From Thermoplasmata archaeon (GTDB lineage Archaea; Thermoplasmatota; Thermoplasmata; Lutacidiplasmatales; UBA184), in NCBI GenBank assembly GCA_030042955.1, contig JASHYQ010000178.1, positions 1 through 10,224 on the forward strand: DNA of 10,224 nucleotides. The letters run 5' to 3'. Position numbers and translations under genes: made by a program. Below, piece after piece: positions 1,881 through 8,929 of this stretch. The notes under the pieces are model-generated. The model was given only the letters and a program-made list of their open reading frames with translations. It made no database searches and was not told the DNA's origin. Positions within the stretch are counted from its first letter, which is position 1. Each line of letters opens with the position of its first letter.

Positions 1881-4800
1881 TCAGTTCGGCCCCCTTGGCC
1901 ACTCCCCGGAGGCCCCCGGAGGGGGCCCTCCGACCACAACCGAGCGTGGGTGGCTGAGCCAAGCGCCTCGCTGAGCTACCGTGTTCTGCCGAGAGGCCGC
2001 CAGTCGGTGGGGCCAGGTGGGCATCGGTTCTTCCTCCGCCGCTTGGACCGAGCTCCCCTCGGAGGGTCTCTCTTCCCGCCTCGGGCTGCTCGGCGGCTGC
2101 TCGACGATCGGCGCCCGCCGCCGACGGCCCACCGCAAAGCCCGCCACCAGGGCGGCGAGAGCCACTGCCCCGAGGAGCGCGACCCCGCCCGCCCCGCCGA
2201 ACACGGCGTACCACGGCGTCGCCGCGGCCGTGTGCTTCTGGGCCAGCTCCTGCTCCAGTTGAGTGATCTGGGCCTGGTCCGAAGCCAGGTCGGACTGGAG
2301 TTGGCTGATCTGGCTCTGGTCGGCCTGGGAGGTCGACTGGAGCTGGGTCAGCTGCGCCTGGAGACTCGCGATGGTCGCCGTGTCGGCACTCAGCTCGGAC
2401 GCGACGCTAGCGTTGGCCGTTGCCCAGTTCTGTTCGATACCGGAGAGTTGGGCGTTGAGCGCGGCGACGCTGGCGGTCAGCGAGACGATCTCGTTGTCGG
2501 AGTACAAGACCACGCTCCGCGTCGTCGTCGCGGCCCCGGGCGCCGACTCGGTGAAGACCACCGAGTAGTAGCCATCGGCCAGGGCAGCGGTGTTCAGCGC
2601 GTAGGTTCCTGAGATCCCGGTCGCCAAGACCGTCGATCCCGCTCCCGACACCAGCGTCAGGATGCCGGTGGCCAGCTCCGTCCCTTTCGCGTTCGTGTAG
2701 GCGGCGCCGGACCAGGAAATCGTGTCCGTGCCCGTAACGCCGCTCGCCGACGCGCTCTGAGAGATCGTCGCCGGGAGGAACACGGTCGGGTCCTGCCAGA
2801 CGATCGGGTTCTGCACGCTCCTCTCCGTGTAGTTGTAGTAGAACCCGTCGAAGTACTCGCTGTACCCGAACGAGACGTCGTTCACGCCGCTCGCGAGCTC
2901 GCTCACGACGATCGGTCCCGTGAGACCCGACACATCCAGGTTCACGGGCAGCAGACCGTTGTCGACCCCGCTCTCCCAGACATCCGCTCCGAAGTTCGTG
3001 TCGTAGAACGGAGTGCACCCGGGAAGGAGCACCGTGTTCGCCGGTTGCGCCGCGCCACCGGGGAGCGGGCAGGTGTAGTTGACGAACTGGCCGGGCCCGC
3101 CACCGACGGAGATGTTGACGAAGCTCGCGTACTTCATGCCCGCGAAGGAGAGGTTCCCTACGACCGCGGTGCCCGCCGAGTTCAGGGTCAGGTCGCCCGT
3201 GTAGAACGACCCGGACTGGGGCTCGACGAAGACCGTGACGGTATTGGATACAAGTCCATCGTACGTAGCCGTCAGCTGGTACACCTGAGTGTAGAGGGAC
3301 CCGTTCGTCTCTGCCAGGCCGAGGGCCGCCGGCCAGAAGGTCGCCTCGCCACGGGCGTCCGAGATCGTCGTCCCGATCGTCGCGCCGGGGGCGTAGGTCG
3401 CCGGAGGCAGGGTCGGGTCGATCAGACCCTCCTGGCTCACGACGGCGACCTGGGTGACCACCGCTCCCGAGACCGGGAGGCCGTTCAGCCAGATATCCGA
3501 CTGGGCAAAGATGTTGTAGTCCCCGACCGTGGTGGTCGTGAACATCGTGGTCTCCGCGTCGGCCGTGTCGCAGTTGCCGTACGGGTCGACCACGCACAGG
3601 GTCAGCGTGCCCTGCGGGGTGGGCGCCTGCACGGCGTAGTCGACAAAGCTCCACTCCGGAGACGGTCCGACCACGGACGTCACGAGGAAGTAGCCGTAGG
3701 TCGTCGCCGCGTCGCCCCCGGGCGGGGTCCCTGTCGTGGGCGTGTAGGTGAACTTCCCGTCCGAGCCGGTCGTCATCGTGGTCAGGGACCCGCCGCCGTA
3801 GGCACCGGCGCTCGACTGGCCGGAGTAAGCGGCTACATCGTAGACCCCTGGCTGCCCGGAGCCGTCGAGGACCTCGAGCGTGTAGGCGGTCCCGGCCGTC
3901 AGGATGGGGTCGGTGAACGGCACGGGACCTCCCGGCGTGACGACGAACAGGCTGAAGGCCGGATTGGCGATGGAGTGCCCCGCCAGCCCCGTCTGGCCGA
4001 ATAGGTCGTTGTCCAGGAGCTTCACGTTCGGGATCCCGAGACCCTGGAGGTAGTTCCAGCCACTCCCGGCGGGGTTGCCGAGGCTCGGGAACCAGATCGG
4101 CTGCACCGGCGCGCTGGGTACCTCGATCGAGAGGTTGTAGTAGTACCACGTGAACGAGTTGACCGGCGCCGAGTCGAGGCCGGACCCCTCTCCCATCGGG
4201 GTGTACGGGTTCGAGGCCACGGCGCCGGCTTCGTAGGCGTTGTGCGCCGCGTAGAGCAACGGATTGATGTCGCCCATCTCGGGGGTGCCGAACGCCACGT
4301 TGGCCTGCTCTTCGACGAGCGCCCACTCACCAGCGGTAATGGGTGTGGCGAAAGACGTCCCGCCCCAGAAGAGCGACCACGACCCGTCGACATAGATGGT
4401 CATGTTGAACGCGGCGCTGCCCGCGATCACGGGGTCGATCTTCTCGCCAGTGGAGTAGGTGTCGAGGGCGTTCTGCCACCACGGCTGGGTCTCCACGAAC
4501 GACTGGCCAAAGCCGCCGCCGACGACGCCTGTGTAGGTCCCTCCGATGTGTTCGCTGTACGACCAGTAGGCCGTAGCCCCGATGCCGGTCGCCGACGCCC
4601 AGTACGCCTGTCCGATAGCGCCGTAGCAGTAGGGAACGTAGGCGGTACCGTTCCACAGGTACTCGATGAACCCGTCACAGTAGGTGAAGTTGTTTGACGT
4701 GATCGGGAACTCGGAGCCGTCGCCCACGGCCGTGATCTGGGCACCGCCCACCGAGGTCGCCCCAGGGGAATCCGCCGCGGCAAAGTCGTTCACGGTGGCG

Positions 4801-6443
4801 TACACTCCTCCGCTGTCGCCCGAGGCAAAGAAGTTGGTTACTCCCACACTGTTGAGCAGCTCGAGCTCCTGGTCCTCGGCGGTGATGTAGATCGGGGTTC
4901 CGTAGAAGTACTCGTACTCCTCGCCCTCGCCGTAGCTGTTCGACGTGATCGTGACCCCGCAGGCTCCCGAGGTCGTCCCTTCGACCACGTACATGTTGGC
5001 CCCGTTCAGGGTCGCGGTCGAGGGGCAGACGCCGCCGGTCGACCCGAGGGAGAGGTACTGGGCGATATCGGCGTAGGCCGTGTCGAAGTCGGAGAAGTAC
5101 CCGGGGTACGGAATGGCGATCACATCGATGTGAGCGCCTGGAGCCATCGTCGAGGCGTACTCGACATCGAGCTCGGTTTCGCCGGTCCACCCCGCGTATT
5201 CGCCCTCAAGGACGCAGTTGTCAATGTTGGTGTTCGGAATCCCGGTCAGGGAGTACCCGCCGCTGGTGTTCACCGCAATCTGGGTGACCCGGTCGGGGAG
5301 CTGGTTCGGGTTGCCGTAGACCTGCTGCGAGAATTGGGAGAGGTCGCTGGGGATCGCGCACCCGACCTCGACGACCGCGATGGTGACGCCCTGGCCCGTG
5401 TCGGGCTCGGAGTCGATCGTGGCCGCTCCGCTCCAGAGGTTGTCCGCCCCGGTAAGGTCGGGCATGGTCGACGGGAAGAGGAACTGGTACTCGCCGCAGA
5501 GCTCGTCATACTCGCACGAGAGACCCTGTGCGCTGAAGTTGGTCCACAGGAAGCTCGAGTTCTCGATCGATTGGTTGCCGTCCAGCGACTGGGGGCACTC
5601 GCCGAATACCCCGAATTGGCAGGGAACCGGTGGAGGTGGAGTGCTGTTGTTCTCGGCCCCGGTTTCCGCCTGGGCGGATCCGGGATACAACCCGTGAGGC
5701 AGGGCCAGGGTGGGAGTCGCCGTCATGCCGTCCAGACCGGCAATCCCATTGACGGCGGAAGCGATCCCTAGCGGTAGCTGGGCGGGCCCCAGATTCGCGT
5801 AGAAGGTAGGTCCCATTTCCGTCGTGCCCGCGACTCCGCTCTTGGCGCCGAACGAGGGGTTCCAGACCCCGGTCGACTGGTACTCCGTAGCGAAGGCGGA
5901 GAGGCTTGTGTGGAAGGCCGCCGACATCTCGGCGACGGTCCCGCTGACGGTCAGCGTCAGCGCCGTCGCGCTCGACTGAACGGCGAGCCCGTAACTTTCA
6001 AAGTAGGCGACGGTGGAGGCGTAGGCGCTGTTCCCGTAGGTGCTCCCGAGGGCCTCGGCCGACAGGAAGTGCCGGTACAGCGGGCTGCCCACGTCGTTGA
6101 GCTCGTTGGCGAGGGTGCTGAGGCTAGATGAGGGCGTCAGGGTCACGGTCACGGTCATCAGGGCGGTCGATTTGTACGCCTGAGGTTCGGGCACGACCGA
6201 GACGGTTCCCAGGGACGTGACGCCGTTCGGATTGAGGTCACTCGCGCTGCCCTGGACCTTCGTCAGCGGACCCGGGCTGACCGCGGCCGGAGCGACGCCT
6301 GCGTGCGAAGTTACCGGAGCGCTCGCTCCACTAGCTCCCGGGGCAGAGTGCGTCGAGACGGTATTCGCCAACGCGAATGCCACGATCGCGACCACGACGA
6401 CCAGAATGGCGACCCATCCAGTTCTTCCAACTTTCTCGTACAT
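1881..6443 (-). CDS. Secreted, stalk-anchored S53 (sedolisin/kumamolisin-type) serine-carboxyl peptidase
   Basis: 1520 residues. Residues 8-27 form a signal/anchor helix after basic K4 and R7, with possible cleavage at ALA-N. Residues about 90-235 match the pro-kumamolisin activation domain (SPLYRHFLSAEALGSTYG, 120-137). The catalytic domain covers about 320-810. It has E422 and D426 in GETELDVEYA, D543 in ASGDSGG (oxyanion) and S697 in GGTSFATP, which is the full Glu-Asp-Ser triad; the Gly in place of Ser before TS also occurs in kumamolisin. Residues about 830-1315 are Thr/Ser/Gly-rich beta domains of immunoglobulin-like look. Residues 1318-1403 are coiled coil. A helix at 1411-1438 ends in RRRR, and a Pro/Arg-rich tail runs to 1520. 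All 14 cysteines (275-1143) lie in the predicted exterior part, so disulfides are likely. The family hydrolyses proteins at acid pH, so this is probably a cell-surface nutritional or processing protease. It is far longer than typical 500-700-residue sedolisins. Confidence 0.93.
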   Translation of the reverse strand: MYEKVGRTGWVAILVVVVAIVAFALANTVSTHSAPGASGASAPVTSHAGVAPAAVSPGPLTKVQGSASDLNPNGVTSLGTVSVVPEPQAYKSTALMTVTVTLTPSSSLSTLANELNDVGSPLYRHFLSAEALGSTYGNSAYASTVAYFESYGLAVQSSATALTLTVSGTVAEMSAAFHTSLSAFATEYQSTGVWNPSFGAKSGVAGTTEMGPTFYANLGPAQLPLGIASAVNGIAGLDGMTATPTLALPHGLYPGSAQAETGAENNSTPPPPVPCQFGVFGECPQSLDGNQSIENSSFLWTNFSAQGLSCEYDELCGEYQFLFPSTMPDLTGADNLWSGAATIDSEPDTGQGVTIAVVEVGCAIPSDLSQFSQQVYGNPNQLPDRVTQIAVNTSGGYSLTGIPNTNIDNCVLEGEYAGWTGETELDVEYASTMAPGAHIDVIAIPYPGYFSDFDTAYADIAQYLSLGSTGGVCPSTATLNGANMYVVEGTTSGACGVTITSNSYGEGEEYEYFYGTPIYITAEDQELELLNSVGVTNFFASGDSGGVYATVNDFAAADSPGATSVGGAQITAVGDGSEFPITSNNFTYCDGFIEYLWNGTAYVPYCYGAIGQAYWASATGIGATAYWSYSEHIGGTYTGVVGGGFGQSFVETQPWWQNALDTYSTGEKIDPVIAGSAAFNMTIYVDGSWSLFWGGTSFATPITAGEWALVEEQANVAFGTPEMGDINPLLYAAHNAYEAGAVASNPYTPMGEGSGLDSAPVNSFTWYYYNLSIEVPSAPVQPIWFPSLGNPAGSGWNYLQGLGIPNVKLLDNDLFGQTGLAGHSIANPAFSLFVVTPGGPVPFTDPILTAGTAYTLEVLDGSGQPGVYDVAAYSGQSSAGAYGGGSLTTMTTGSDGKFTYTPTTGTPPGGDAATTYGYFLVTSVVGPSPEWSFVDYAVQAPTPQGTLTLCVVDPYGNCDTADAETTMFTTTTVGDYNIFAQSDIWLNGLPVSGAVVTQVAVVSQEGLIDPTLPPATYAPGATIGTTISDARGEATFWPAALGLAETNGSLYTQVYQLTATYDGLVSNTVTVFVEPQSGSFYTGDLTLNSAGTAVVGNLSFAGMKYASFVNISVGGGPGQFVNYTCPLPGGAAQPANTVLLPGCTPFYDTNFGADVWESGVDNGLLPVNLDVSGLTGPIVVSELASGVNDVSFGYSEYFDGFYYNYTERSVQNPIVWQDPTVFLPATISQSASASGVTGTDTISWSGAAYTNAKGTELATGILTLVSGAGSTVLATGISGTYALNTAALADGYYSVVFTESAPGAATTTRSVVLYSDNEIVSLTASVAALNAQLSGIEQNWATANASVASELSADTATIASLQAQLTQLQSTSQADQSQISQLQSDLASDQAQITQLEQELAQKHTAAATPWYAVFGGAGGVALLGAVALAALVAGFAVGRRRRAPIVEQPPSSPRREERPSEGSSVQAAEEEPMPTWPHRLAASRQNTVAQRGAWLSHPRSVVVGGPPPGASGEWPRGPN
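2238..2363 (-). repeat. Three 14-residue heptad-pair repeats in the peptidase stalk
   Basis: Residues 1361-1374, 1375-1388 and 1389-1402 of the S53 protein are related tandem units, best seen in DQSQISQLQSDLAS followed by DQAQITQLEQELAQ. Each unit is exactly two heptads with I/L at the core positions and Gln/Asp outside. This indicates a parallel coiled coil that ends about 9 residues before the membrane helix. The repeat is a protein-level one; at the DNA level the copies are diverged. Confidence 0.8.
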
Positions 6444-6505: not shown

Positions 6506-6543
6506 CTGATCGGACCTCCAGCTGGCCCCGCCGTTCGGATCAG
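6506..6543 (-). other. Inverted repeat around the stop codon of the IS630-like gene
   Basis: CTGATC (6506-6511) pairs with GATCAG (6538-6543), the latter spanning the TGA stop, with partial pairing continuing inward (CGGAC against GTTCGG). It sits in the 97-base gap before the S53 gene. It could be a terminator stem or a remnant of a transposon end; no matching copy is seen at the other end of the gene. Confidence 0.25.
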
Positions 6544-7661
6544 TCAAAGGGAGATTGAGACCGCGAAGAAAAATCACGCGAATCCCGAGTGGAACTCGAA
6601 TACGTATCGACGGCCGGACTCCGCCAGTGGGAGACCGCCCCGCTCCGGGTCCAGGCGAACGGTCGGCCGAGCAGGGTCGCTCCGGGGAGGAAGCTGCCGA
6701 GCGACCGCTCCAGCCCGGGCAGGCTGGCAAGGCCGCCAGCGGCCTCGGAAGAAGTCCGCGGGGGTTGGAGCCACGCACGGACGAGGCTGGAAATCGGTTG
6801 GTCCGCCGGCGAGGTCACCAGGTGGAAGCGCGGGTGCCGGTCCAGCCACCGAAGGACTCGTGCATCCTGGAAGATCGAGCTCGCACCGGTGAGCAGGTGG
6901 ATCTCCGATGCGCGGGTCGAGCGCTCGTTCACCGACTCGAGGAACAGCAGCAACTCCCGGGAGGTCAGCTTCCAGGAGGCCGCGCTGGGGGGAAGCCCAT
7001 CGAGGACCCGGACCGTCTCCGCTAGCTGCTCGACCCGGCCCAGAGCGCGACGGTCCCCCTCTGTCCGCTCCCGCCCTCCGCTGCCGCCGCGACGCGAGGA
7101 GTGAGCGGTCGCTCCGGGGGCGTTGCCCAAGAAGTCGATACTGAGGGCGAGCAGGGTCCGGGGAGGGTCCACGTAGAGGCCCGCGACGTCGATTCTCCGG
7201 TCGCGGACCCGCGGGTCGGGCGATAGTCGCCAGTGTCGGTACGGCGGAGGGCGAACTCCCGAGCTTCTCCACGCTCGTGCGATGGTCGTGTGGCTCGCGC
7301 CCAGCTCTTTCGCAAGGGTCCGGGTCGTCCACCGAACGCCGTTGGTCGGCCGGGCAGACCGAGTGCGCTCGAGGATAGTGGCTACGGAAGGAGAGCCGGA
7401 ACCCTCCTTATGCCCCGACCGGGGAGCGTCGGCAGAGATTCCCGCCAGCCCGAGCAGGGCGAAACGCGCCCGCCACCGCCGCACGGTCACGGGGCTCATG
7501 CGAAGAATCTTCGCAATCTCCTTGTTGTTCCGACCCTCGGCCGCGAGCAGGACAATCCGGGCCCGCTCGGCGCGCCGCACGGGGACCGATCGGCCCCGCG
7601 TCCACTGCAAGAGTTTCGCCCACTCCCGCGGGCTCAGGGCCACGGGAGGGGCACCCTTCAT
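6540..7661 (-). CDS. IS630-family transposase-derived protein with degraded DDE triad
   Basis: 373 residues from the ATG at 7661; this start is chosen because a TATA-like box lies 20-27 bases upstream and the reading frame above it has no transposase similarity. Seen: a first HTH at about 30-80 (ARIVLLAAEGRNNKEIAKIL, then MSPVTVRRWRARF) and a second at 107-150 (WTTRTLAKELGASHTTIARA). GLYVDPP at 161-167 leads into the catalytic core. These match IS630/Tc1-type transposases closely. In the core, the usual VDEK is SIDFL (D176 kept), the usual HLVLDN is HLLTGA (Asp replaced by G259, Asn by A260), and the usual NQVERWF is SSLVRAWL (Glu replaced by R295). The intervening RWLDRHPRFHL (271-281) is kept and places these positions without gaps. 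So DNA binding may persist while strand transfer is unlikely. It may be a domesticated regulator or a decaying insertion; no terminal repeats were found. Confidence 0.8.
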   Translation of the reverse strand: MKGAPPVALSPREWAKLLQWTRGRSVPVRRAERARIVLLAAEGRNNKEIAKILRMSPVTVRRWRARFALLGLAGISADAPRSGHKEGSGSPSVATILERTRSARPTNGVRWTTRTLAKELGASHTTIARAWRSSGVRPPPYRHWRLSPDPRVRDRRIDVAGLYVDPPRTLLALSIDFLGNAPGATAHSSRRGGSGGRERTEGDRRALGRVEQLAETVRVLDGLPPSAASWKLTSRELLLFLESVNERSTRASEIHLLTGASSIFQDARVLRWLDRHPRFHLVTSPADQPISSLVRAWLQPPRTSSEAAGGLASLPGLERSLGSFLPGATLLGRPFAWTRSGAVSHWRSPAVDTYSSSTRDSRDFSSRSQSPFD

Positions 7662-7680: not shown

Positions 7681-7688
7681 GTTATATT
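7681..7688 (-). promoter_or_regulatory. TATA-like box for a leaderless start of the IS630-like gene
   Basis: The minus strand reads AATATAAC, occupying -27 to -20 relative to the ATG at 7661. That position is expected when transcription begins at or next to the start codon. No Shine-Dalgarno sequence is present, in agreement with a leaderless mRNA. This AT patch stands out against very GC-rich surroundings. Confidence 0.6.
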
Positions 7689-7707: not shown

Positions 7708-7746
7708 GCGGATAAAGTGCATCTATCTACGTTCCAGTTTATCCGC
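7708..7746. promoter_or_regulatory. 9+9 perfect inverted repeat upstream of the IS630-like gene promoter
   Basis: GCGGATAAA (7708-7716) and TTTATCCGC (7738-7746) are exact reverse complements separated by 21 bases. The element starts 20 bases upstream of the TATA-like box. A further CGGATAACC lies at 7788-7796, giving three GGATAA cores. The half-site centres are 30 bases apart, about three helical turns, which suits a dimeric or tandem-HTH binding protein. It could be an operator, an activator site, or a transposon end remnant. Confidence 0.5.
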
Positions 7747-8029
7747 CGCCCGGTGCGACGTCCGCAGGAGTCGGGCGACCGCGATGTCGGATAACCATGA
7801 GCAGGACTAGGGGGAACCAAGGCAGACCAGGCAGCAGAGCCCCGGGCGGGTCAACCTACTGACATGGACCGGGTCGACCACGTTCCCGGCGGTCCGGCCA
7901 TGAAGGAAGCGGTCGCTCACCGAGGGATGGGAGGTTGTGCCGGCACTCATCGGCCCGCTGGGTCGAGTAGTTCCGTGAGGGAAAGGGGCCCAGGTCCCCT
8001 AGGGGAGGAGGCCGTCCAGAGAAGGGCTC
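7747..8029. other. Intergenic stretch without a supported gene
   Basis: Together with the promoter region this makes a 368-base gap between the regulator stop (8030) and the start at 7661. I see no convincing coding region. It contains GGACCG (7866-7871) with CGGTCC (7890-7895) as a 6-base inverted repeat, and the palindromic terminator-like element listed separately. A plus-strand open frame from 7864 overlaps the regulator and has no recognisable protein features. Confidence 0.5.
7984..8006 (-). terminator. Candidate terminator/palindrome after the tandem-HTH regulator
   Basis: TCCCCTAGGGGA (7995-8006) is a perfect 12-base palindrome beginning 24 bases past the regulator's stop. In addition AGGGG (7984-7988) and CCCCT (7996-8000) form an alternative stem with a 7-base loop, followed in the minus-strand transcript by TTTCCCTC. 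The pyrimidine tail and position suit 3'-end formation, though there is no strong T-run. Confidence 0.35.
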
Positions 8030-8929
8030 TCAGCGCTCGACGCCTCTCGTCCCGTATCTTCGAATCCGTTCGCTCCGAATCCAGTCGACGATGCGATCTC
8101 GGGCGAAGTACCCTCCTGCAGGTATCAGGGGGTCCGCGCTGAGGACGCCAGGCAGCGAGCGGAGCTCGAGTTCCAGTTCCCGGGCGTCGAAGTAGCTGTC
8201 CGCGCTTCCCAGCAAGTAGACCCCGCGCGGATTTCGGGTCCAGTGCGGTCGGTCCCAGAGCCGGGGCAACTTCAGGGCCGCCTCGTCGACCGACCCGTCC
8301 AACTTGAGCCAGATGCCGTAGGTGGAGAGCCCTGCCTCGCGTGCGAGGTCCACGATCATGGCGAGTTCTAGCACCCGGGCGGTGTCGAGGTTCGACCGAT
8401 GAAGGCGGAGAGTCCGCGGAGAGACGCCTGCCTGCTTGGCCTGTGTGGTGAGCGAGGCCCGAGGGGTTCGAACCACGGCTTCCATCACCTTCCAGTCGAC
8501 CCGGGAAAGGTCGTCAGGGTCCATCAAGCCCTTTGGGGACCAGTCGTCCAACGGGCCACCGAAGGGACGGCCGAGCAACCGGCCCAGTCGAGGGTCGTCC
8601 TGGGCGTCGGGCTCCTCTGTAAACCGCACGGCCATGTAGAAGTCCGGCCGAAAGCAGCGCACGTACACGAGGTCCTCGACCTCTCTCAAACGTGCGACGG
8701 GAAGCTCGAGTCGATCTCGGGCGGTGTAGCCCCAGGCGAGCGCATGCCGTCCCAATATCTCGGCGCCCGGGTGGACCGCATAGTCGGTCAGCACCCCGTC
8801 GGTTTCCAGCCGCCGTCGACGGAGCCGGACCGCTTTTCCCGTGAGGTTCACCTCACGCCCGATCCGTTCGTCCGAGAGGAACGGGTCGGAGACGAGCAGC
8901 GTGAAGATCCTGAGGTCGGTCCGGTCCAT
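8030..8929 (-). CDS. Tandem winged-HTH transcription regulator, Lrp/AsnC-like
   Basis: 299 residues. Seen: two similar units in one chain. The first HTH is at about 3-50 (LDxRIxxLLxxDPxLSDxxIGxxxxLTGKAVRLRRRRLExDGVL). The second is at 141-190 (LSRVDWKVMEAVVRTPRASL, then TTQAKQAGVSPRTLRLHRSN). Each HTH is followed by an alpha/beta stretch of about 80-90 residues that may be a ligand- or dimer-type domain (58-105 and 192-270). Single Lrp proteins are about 150 residues, so this looks like an internal duplication that would let one chain behave as a built-in dimer. It likely binds DNA in the cytoplasm as a repressor or activator; the ligand is unknown. The ATG at 8929 lacks a Shine-Dalgarno site and has a TATA-like hexamer at -25 to -30. 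It is divergent from the VOC gene, which makes that gene a natural candidate target. Confidence 0.78.
   Translation of the reverse strand: MDRTDLRIFTLLVSDPFLSDERIGREVNLTGKAVRLRRRRLETDGVLTDYAVHPGAEILGRHALAWGYTARDRLELPVARLREVEDLVYVRCFRPDFYMAVRFTEEPDAQDDPRLGRLLGRPFGGPLDDWSPKGLMDPDDLSRVDWKVMEAVVRTPRASLTTQAKQAGVSPRTLRLHRSNLDTARVLELAMIVDLAREAGLSTYGIWLKLDGSVDEAALKLPRLWDRPHWTRNPRGVYLLGSADSYFDARELELELRSLPGVLSADPLIPAGGYFARDRIVDWIRSERIRRYGTRGVER

Follow-up and report, generated by a model that had tools for sequence, protein, structure and literature searches.

The 373-codon gene described here is located in a stretch of 10,224 nucleotides from a Thermoplasmata archaeon, which we refer to as the window, and is best explained as a domesticated IS630 transposase, a reading that is well supported and to which we assign a probability of roughly 0.9. 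The exaptation is seen in the homology of the protein to IS630 transposases, in the loss of the full catalytic triad and of the CTAGTG-type ends, in the selection that acts on the remnant core, in the conserved gene order and in a pair of conserved, inverted boxes. Judging from sequence comparison, the most likely function of the protein is the local regulation of the adjacent protease gene, and we consider this function probable. The positions of the features that are discussed below are listed in Table 1.

Table 1. Features of the IS630-derived gene and its surroundings, in window coordinates.
Feature	Position	Strand	Basis or remark
IS630-derived gene without full DDE triad, 373 aa	6540..7661	minus	
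N-terminal HTH units, two (residues 11-134)	7260..7631	minus	Pfam HTH_23/29/28/32 and predicted helices
RNase H-like core remnant (residues 155-338)	6648..7199	minus	holds D176, G259, R295
G259 codon	6885-6887	minus	
R295 codon	6777-6779	minus	
C-terminal tail (residues 341-373), weakly constrained, omega about 1	6543..6641	minus	holds downstream box
TATA-like AATATAA just 5' of the ATG of the regulator candidate	7682-7688	minus	sequence
Upstream TGGAAC box, 75 bp 5' of the ATG	7731..7736	minus	
Downstream GTTCCA box (inverted), 152 bp 5' of the protease ATG	6590..6595	minus	
Sedolisin-type (pro-kumamolisin) protein gene, 1520 aa, candidate target	1881..6443	minus	Pro-kuma_activ E 6.5e-14

An earlier note on this DNA had described an open, IS630-like frame with two N-terminal HTH units, two acids of the triad substituted in place (G259 and R295), a DEK motif that reads DFL, and a TATA-like promoter; each of these observations holds. 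The frame opens with the ATG at 7661 and its stop ends at 6540; an in-frame TTG is present at 7820, yet the homologues align starting at the ATG, and the TATA-like element lies close to that codon. The Pfam search places the HTH domains above their cut-offs and finds no DDE domain in the window protein, the remaining Pfam matches being weak and unrelated. In the profile-profile alignment with intact IS630s (hhalign, probability 100, E 9e-72), G259 faces the Asp of the LDN motif and R295 faces the Glu of the VEGW motif, D176 is retained, and “DF” is read where IS630s have “DE”; the triad of the window protein is D-G-R. The window protein is like the IS630 transposases (NF033545, DDE_3) in its collinearity over 335 columns, in its two HTH units and in the spacing of 36 between D2 and E3; unlike them, it lacks a full triad and CTAGTG-type ends, and scores 91.8 bits against the NCBIfam IS630 model, below the cut-off of 100, compared with 240.6 bits for an intact protein of the same genus (L005). 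Neither TAGTG within 300 bp upstream of the gene nor CACTA within 300 bp downstream was found, and one copy of the gene was detected in the genome of the window, which is 59% complete.

The orthologous set of the window gene, which we refer to as clade A, consists of 14 genes. With the clade A profile, 12 genes score above 400 bits, in 11 of the 78 genomes of the genus, and the next matches, starting with intact elements, reach at most 320 bits; the two additional members (L129 and L130) are located on Thermoplasmata archaeon contigs. A class-wide sample of 400 genomes contains two strong clade A matches from a different genus of the same family, which are probably the same genes as L129 and L130, since their positions match. 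The viral contigs contain two relatives, at 28% identity, and none that is close. The patchiness of clade A within the genus counts against the reading of an exapted regulator. A search with the single sequence of the window protein retrieves G008 and G003 first and proteins that include intact IS630s from the third-best match on; with the clade A profile and in the tree, the protein falls in a clade without the triad.

Besides clade A, the genus contains four further families of degenerate IS630-derived proteins, B to E. The strict DDE triad is found in 0/14 proteins of clade A, 0/17 of C, 0/11 of D, 0/2 of E and 4/18 of B, and in 14/14 intact copies of the genus and 29/30 external IS630s; proteins shorter than 280 aa and the near-duplicates L080 and L082 had been excluded before counting, and 30 of the 68 external IS630s were used for both the count and the tree. 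No DDE_3 match occurs in any of the 14 clade A proteins by Pfam, HTH_32 and HTH_29 occur in all of them, and HTH_23 and HTH_28 in 13; these proteins are diverged, yet full in length. In the tree (106 rows), each of the families A to E falls into a single clade, apart from the 44 intact proteins, which group together (SH-aLRT 99); the topology fits a single domestication followed by duplication, a pattern that long branches could mimic, the forks between families being weak.

Directly downstream of the clade A gene, on the same strand, a sedolisin-type gene is found in 12 of the 14 loci, the exceptions being L033, which lies before another large protein, and L007, which lies at a contig edge. 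The neighbour maps rely on genes predicted with a simple codon-usage caller, which missed the clade A gene of L052, placed by homology search, and left the family gene of L105 uncalled. The 1520-aa protein of the window contains GGTS and ETELD stretches, which resemble sedolisin active-site motifs. The protease family (E <= 1e-60) occurs in 13 of the 78 genomes, including all 11 clade A genomes (hypergeometric P 1e-11, with kinship among genomes ignored). Protein distances of the candidate regulator and the protease are correlated over 12 pairs (Mantel r 0.43, P 0.0025); the correlation falls to r 0.31 (P 0.025) without L002, which counts against the regulator reading. Six protease genes have no clade A neighbour and have upstream DNA at hand; in three of them (L191, L193 and L195) the place of the clade A gene is taken by an HTH_45 winged-helix gene, and the other three have no HTH_45 gene there.

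The occupation of this slot by HTH_45 genes bears on the rival that survives best, namely that the protein binds DNA for the host in a task other than regulation, in DNA architecture, as a partner of the protease or in repair. Such a role would suit a remnant core that is as conserved as the HTH half, but it is opposed by the winged-helix genes that occupy the slot in three of the six other protease loci and by the boxes that precede the protease genes, and we regard it as improbable.

These boxes were found by a Gibbs search of clade A, which returned a TGGAAC motif upstream and a GTTCCA motif downstream, with width-16 scores of 210 and 214, respectively, versus 153-160 in six shuffled sets each. 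The downstream box was chosen in 9/12 loci and missed in L001, L002 and L011, which counts against the regulator reading; in L001 and L002 it lies inside the gene end, outside the searched stretch. Of the clade A genes, 13/14 have TGGAAC in the 180 bp that precede the start, versus 29/475 control genes, family genes being among the controls (P 3e-14). Where the other genes start, L008 and L130 lack an ATG in the alignment, and ATC was taken as their start; another start for L130 reduces the count to 12/14. Upstream of G008, the box reads TGGAAA. The inverted box is located 3' of the clade A genes in 14/14 loci with a loose pattern, and in 12/14 as GTT[CA]CA (binomial P 4e-9, with an assumed background of 14%). 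The protease genes were compared over the 200 bp before their corrected start codons (250 bp in the case of L190), with the same pattern for all of them. The loose box, whose pattern was picked after the sites had been inspected, is present in 12/12 clade A-linked protease genes versus 0/6 others (P 5e-5), and the strict GTT[CA]CA in 10/12 versus 0/6 (P 0.0015). About 22 bp past the downstream box lies an AT-rich stretch, an arrangement that would resemble the position of an activator site 5' of a TATA box. The longer box of the window has a sole match in its genome, which is the known site. TGGAAC also occurs at -76 to -79 in 7 of 11 clade D genes (P 2e-6), and since the box is common to A and D, the recognition site may date to their common ancestor.

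A 9-bp perfect inverted repeat, GCGGATAAA / TTTATCCGC (7708-7716 and 7738-7746), was considered as an operator and rejected, being post hoc and missing upstream of the G008 orthologue. The repeat flanks the TGGAAC box of the window and is rare within the window.

That the boxes are the ends of a non-autonomous element still mobilised in trans is less probable again than a non-regulatory role. The boxes are inverted and flank the gene at about IS630 length, 9 bp of them are identical in L033 and L034, and clade A is patchy, all of which would suit a mobile unit; the best inverted repeats between the locus flanks are mostly short, and only L033 and L034 have the TGGAACCGA box pair among their three best. 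As IS630 ends, however, the boxes have been rejected, the intact elements having CTAGTG-type sequences instead: these occur upstream of 10/14 intact IS630s of the genus and 51/68 external ones, against 0/14 in clade A (B 1/18, C 2/17, D 0/11, E 0/2). The recurrence of the same gene type behind 12 of the 14 copies also opposes mobility, as does the distribution of intact-like matches (235-320 bits), found in 0/11 clade A genomes and 12/67 others, a difference that is not significant (P 0.20) in genomes that are incomplete. The same absence of intact-like matches weighs, with the same reserve, against a dead transposase retained as a repressor of living IS630 elements; the retained DNA-binding half and the intact IS630s of the genus would accord with such a repressor, but the conserved boxes are unlike the intact ends and the link to the protease would be left unexplained, and we consider it very improbable.

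The selection that acts on the gene can be read from its orthologue in G008, another genome of the same genus, whose protein is 73% identical to the window protein and whose gene likewise precedes the same protease gene. At the DNA level the loci are 79% identical over an alignment that begins 8 bp into the gene, counted from its 5' end, and extends through most of the protease gene, and the DNA upstream of the gene gives no alignment between them. For this pair, omega is 0.085 (dN 0.165, dS 1.95; 2dlnL 225 against omega 1), a value that is approximate because dS is high; it is 0.068 in the dead core (residues 206-340) and about 1 in the last 33 residues. For the protease pair, omega is 0.056 and dS 1.98, which, next to the dS of the gene, is as expected under joint inheritance of both genes; a second clade A pair (L007/L033) gives omega 0.054 at dS 1.14. 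Omega is low in intact IS630 pairs too, which counts against the exaptation reading; a low omega indicates that the protein is in use, and the absence of the triad and of the ends argues that this use is other than transposition. An omega far below 1 also makes the open frame more than an accident of GC-rich DNA. The loss of two catalytic acids, the lack of G259 in the orthologue and the neutral-looking final 33 residues would suit a newly inactivated IS630 copy whose frame stays open since GC-rich DNA has few stops, but the rejection of omega 1 at this divergence and the 14 diverged clade A genes, without triad and intact in length, make such a copy highly implausible.

The earlier note had proposed to look for orthologues at a conserved locus, with dN/dS well below 1 and the same Gly and Arg replacements. 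The G008 orthologue provides the first two and, in part, the third: R295 is common to both proteins, but residue 259 of G008 is Asp, and this unshared G259 counts against the proposal. The proposed domestication itself is supported by the synteny, by the omega of the pair and by the placement of the protein in a clade without the triad.

A structural model of the window protein was obtained with AlphaFold2 from an alignment of clade A only (14 rows), with a mean pLDDT of 70 and a pTM of 0.48. The HTH region is predicted as the helices of two units (residues 11-134), with block pLDDT mostly 68-94 and one block at 41. In the core, two strands (155-165 and 168-177) precede a helix at 202-221, residues 179-204 being poorly predicted; a strand ends at 258, directly before G259, and R295 lies within a helix (290-298). 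The predicted core is without an acidic pocket, as the earlier note had anticipated, with the mean pLDDT only 70. A Foldseek search with this model, whose confidence is modest, returned nothing at E <= 0.001, which counts against the reading of an exapted regulator; the best match by E is TnsB, and the best probability among the matches listed belongs to Pax5. No confident match was obtained when solved structures were searched by sequence.

If the window protein is a regulator, both HTH units would bind the upstream and the downstream box; the upstream box would control the IS630-derived gene itself, while the downstream box, about 22 bp before a possible TATA region of the protease gene, would switch the protease. 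The remnant core would probably serve in dimerisation or sensing.

The other four families show comparable associations with their surroundings. In clade D, a single frame of 719-745 aa, present in 12 of 78 genomes, carries an M29-like C-terminal domain (20.1 bits, below the cut-off of 27); in-frame fusions of the IS630-derived N-terminus with the M29-like part are seen in L016, L026, L027, L041, L069, L075, L078, L079, L101, L102 and L103. The C-terminal half of the fusion, taken alone, is matched in the majority of the 78 genomes. Clade D genes are divergent to a gene of cluster c3 in 12/12 loci, and a gene of cluster c6 lies at most two genes away in 9/12; in L058, c3 is a dual-specificity-phosphatase-like protein and c6 a PHO4 phosphate transporter. 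Clade C comprises 17 genes, which come from 15 of the 78 genomes and are located 3' of an ABC-2 permease-type gene in 8/17 loci, and clade B, in 18 of 78 genomes, adjoins a gene of cluster c14 in 6/18 loci; the neighbour domains of clades C and B were checked in a single locus per clade (L061 and L098). Most of the acids are kept in clade B and DDE_3 is matched in 5/18 of its proteins, for which reason this clade may not be dead; the median distance between the first two acids is 50 residues versus 83. About 33 residues are missing between these acids in L020, L088, L022, L024, L025 and other clade B loci, and clade B has its own conserved promoter stretch before the start, of the type GACCC...TTTAT. 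In clade C, L085 and L086 have CTAGTGGGGTCG immediately 5' of the ATG, similar to the ends of intact IS630s and possibly a fossil IS630 end.

On the sequences compared, the best reading of the five families would be a radiation, in this genus, of exapted transposases as local regulators, many with their own neighbours, such as the sedolisin-type protease, an ABC exporter, and Pst-type or PHO4 phosphate transport. To the stronger proposition, that a DDE (IS630) transposase gave rise to a radiating class of transcription factors in one archaeal genus (A to E, four of them without the full triad, many tied to a neighbour or fused to an M29-like domain), we give even odds.

Pax factors probably derive from a Tc1-type transposase, and they are not known to have a remnant catalytic core. 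The N-terminal fold of the window protein resembles the paired domain of these animal proteins in the Foldseek comparison (probability 0.91 for Pax5 and 0.85 for Pax6), but the matches are not significant (E 0.21 and 0.35). In prokaryotes, TldR proteins descend from TnpB. They are RNA-guided transcription factors, nuclease-dead transposon proteins that regulate neighbouring genes (PMC13418256), and in this respect they are like the window protein, a candidate for the same role. Unlike TldR, the window protein belongs to a different protein family: no TnpB domain was found in it by Pfam, and its NCBIfam matches begin with IS630. In animals and plants, proteins of DNA transposons have recurrently become regulators (PMC10027918, PMC7386202 and PMC6000157); the recruitment to regulation would be the same here, but in archaea and in operon-like neighbourhoods. 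Mobile-element DNA-binding proteins have also been recruited as host regulators in prokaryotes, and the cases in the accessible part of that paper (Xre, antitoxins) were already regulators, with no DDE transposase among them (PMC8987985). Among the papers listed by our literature searches, and in the accessible parts of PMC9287336 and PMC8987985, no family of DDE-transposase-derived regulators in archaea was found, and the prokaryotic precedents that they returned, within the same limits, are derived from TnpB or are phage or antitoxin regulators. The archaeal DDE-derived set comprises several stages, i.e. one acid lost, all acids lost, part of the core deleted, and domain fusion; if the reading is true, the successive steps by which a mobile enzyme becomes a local regulator would be directly testable, intact relatives being present in the genus.

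Two further genes of the window can be mentioned. Upstream of the IS630-derived gene, on the same strand, lies a gene for a two-HTH AsnC-type protein (8030-8929), in the place of which G008 has a different gene. A 324-aa protein with no Pfam match is encoded at 662-1636, and a relative of it (cluster c43) is located near the clade D fusion in L058.
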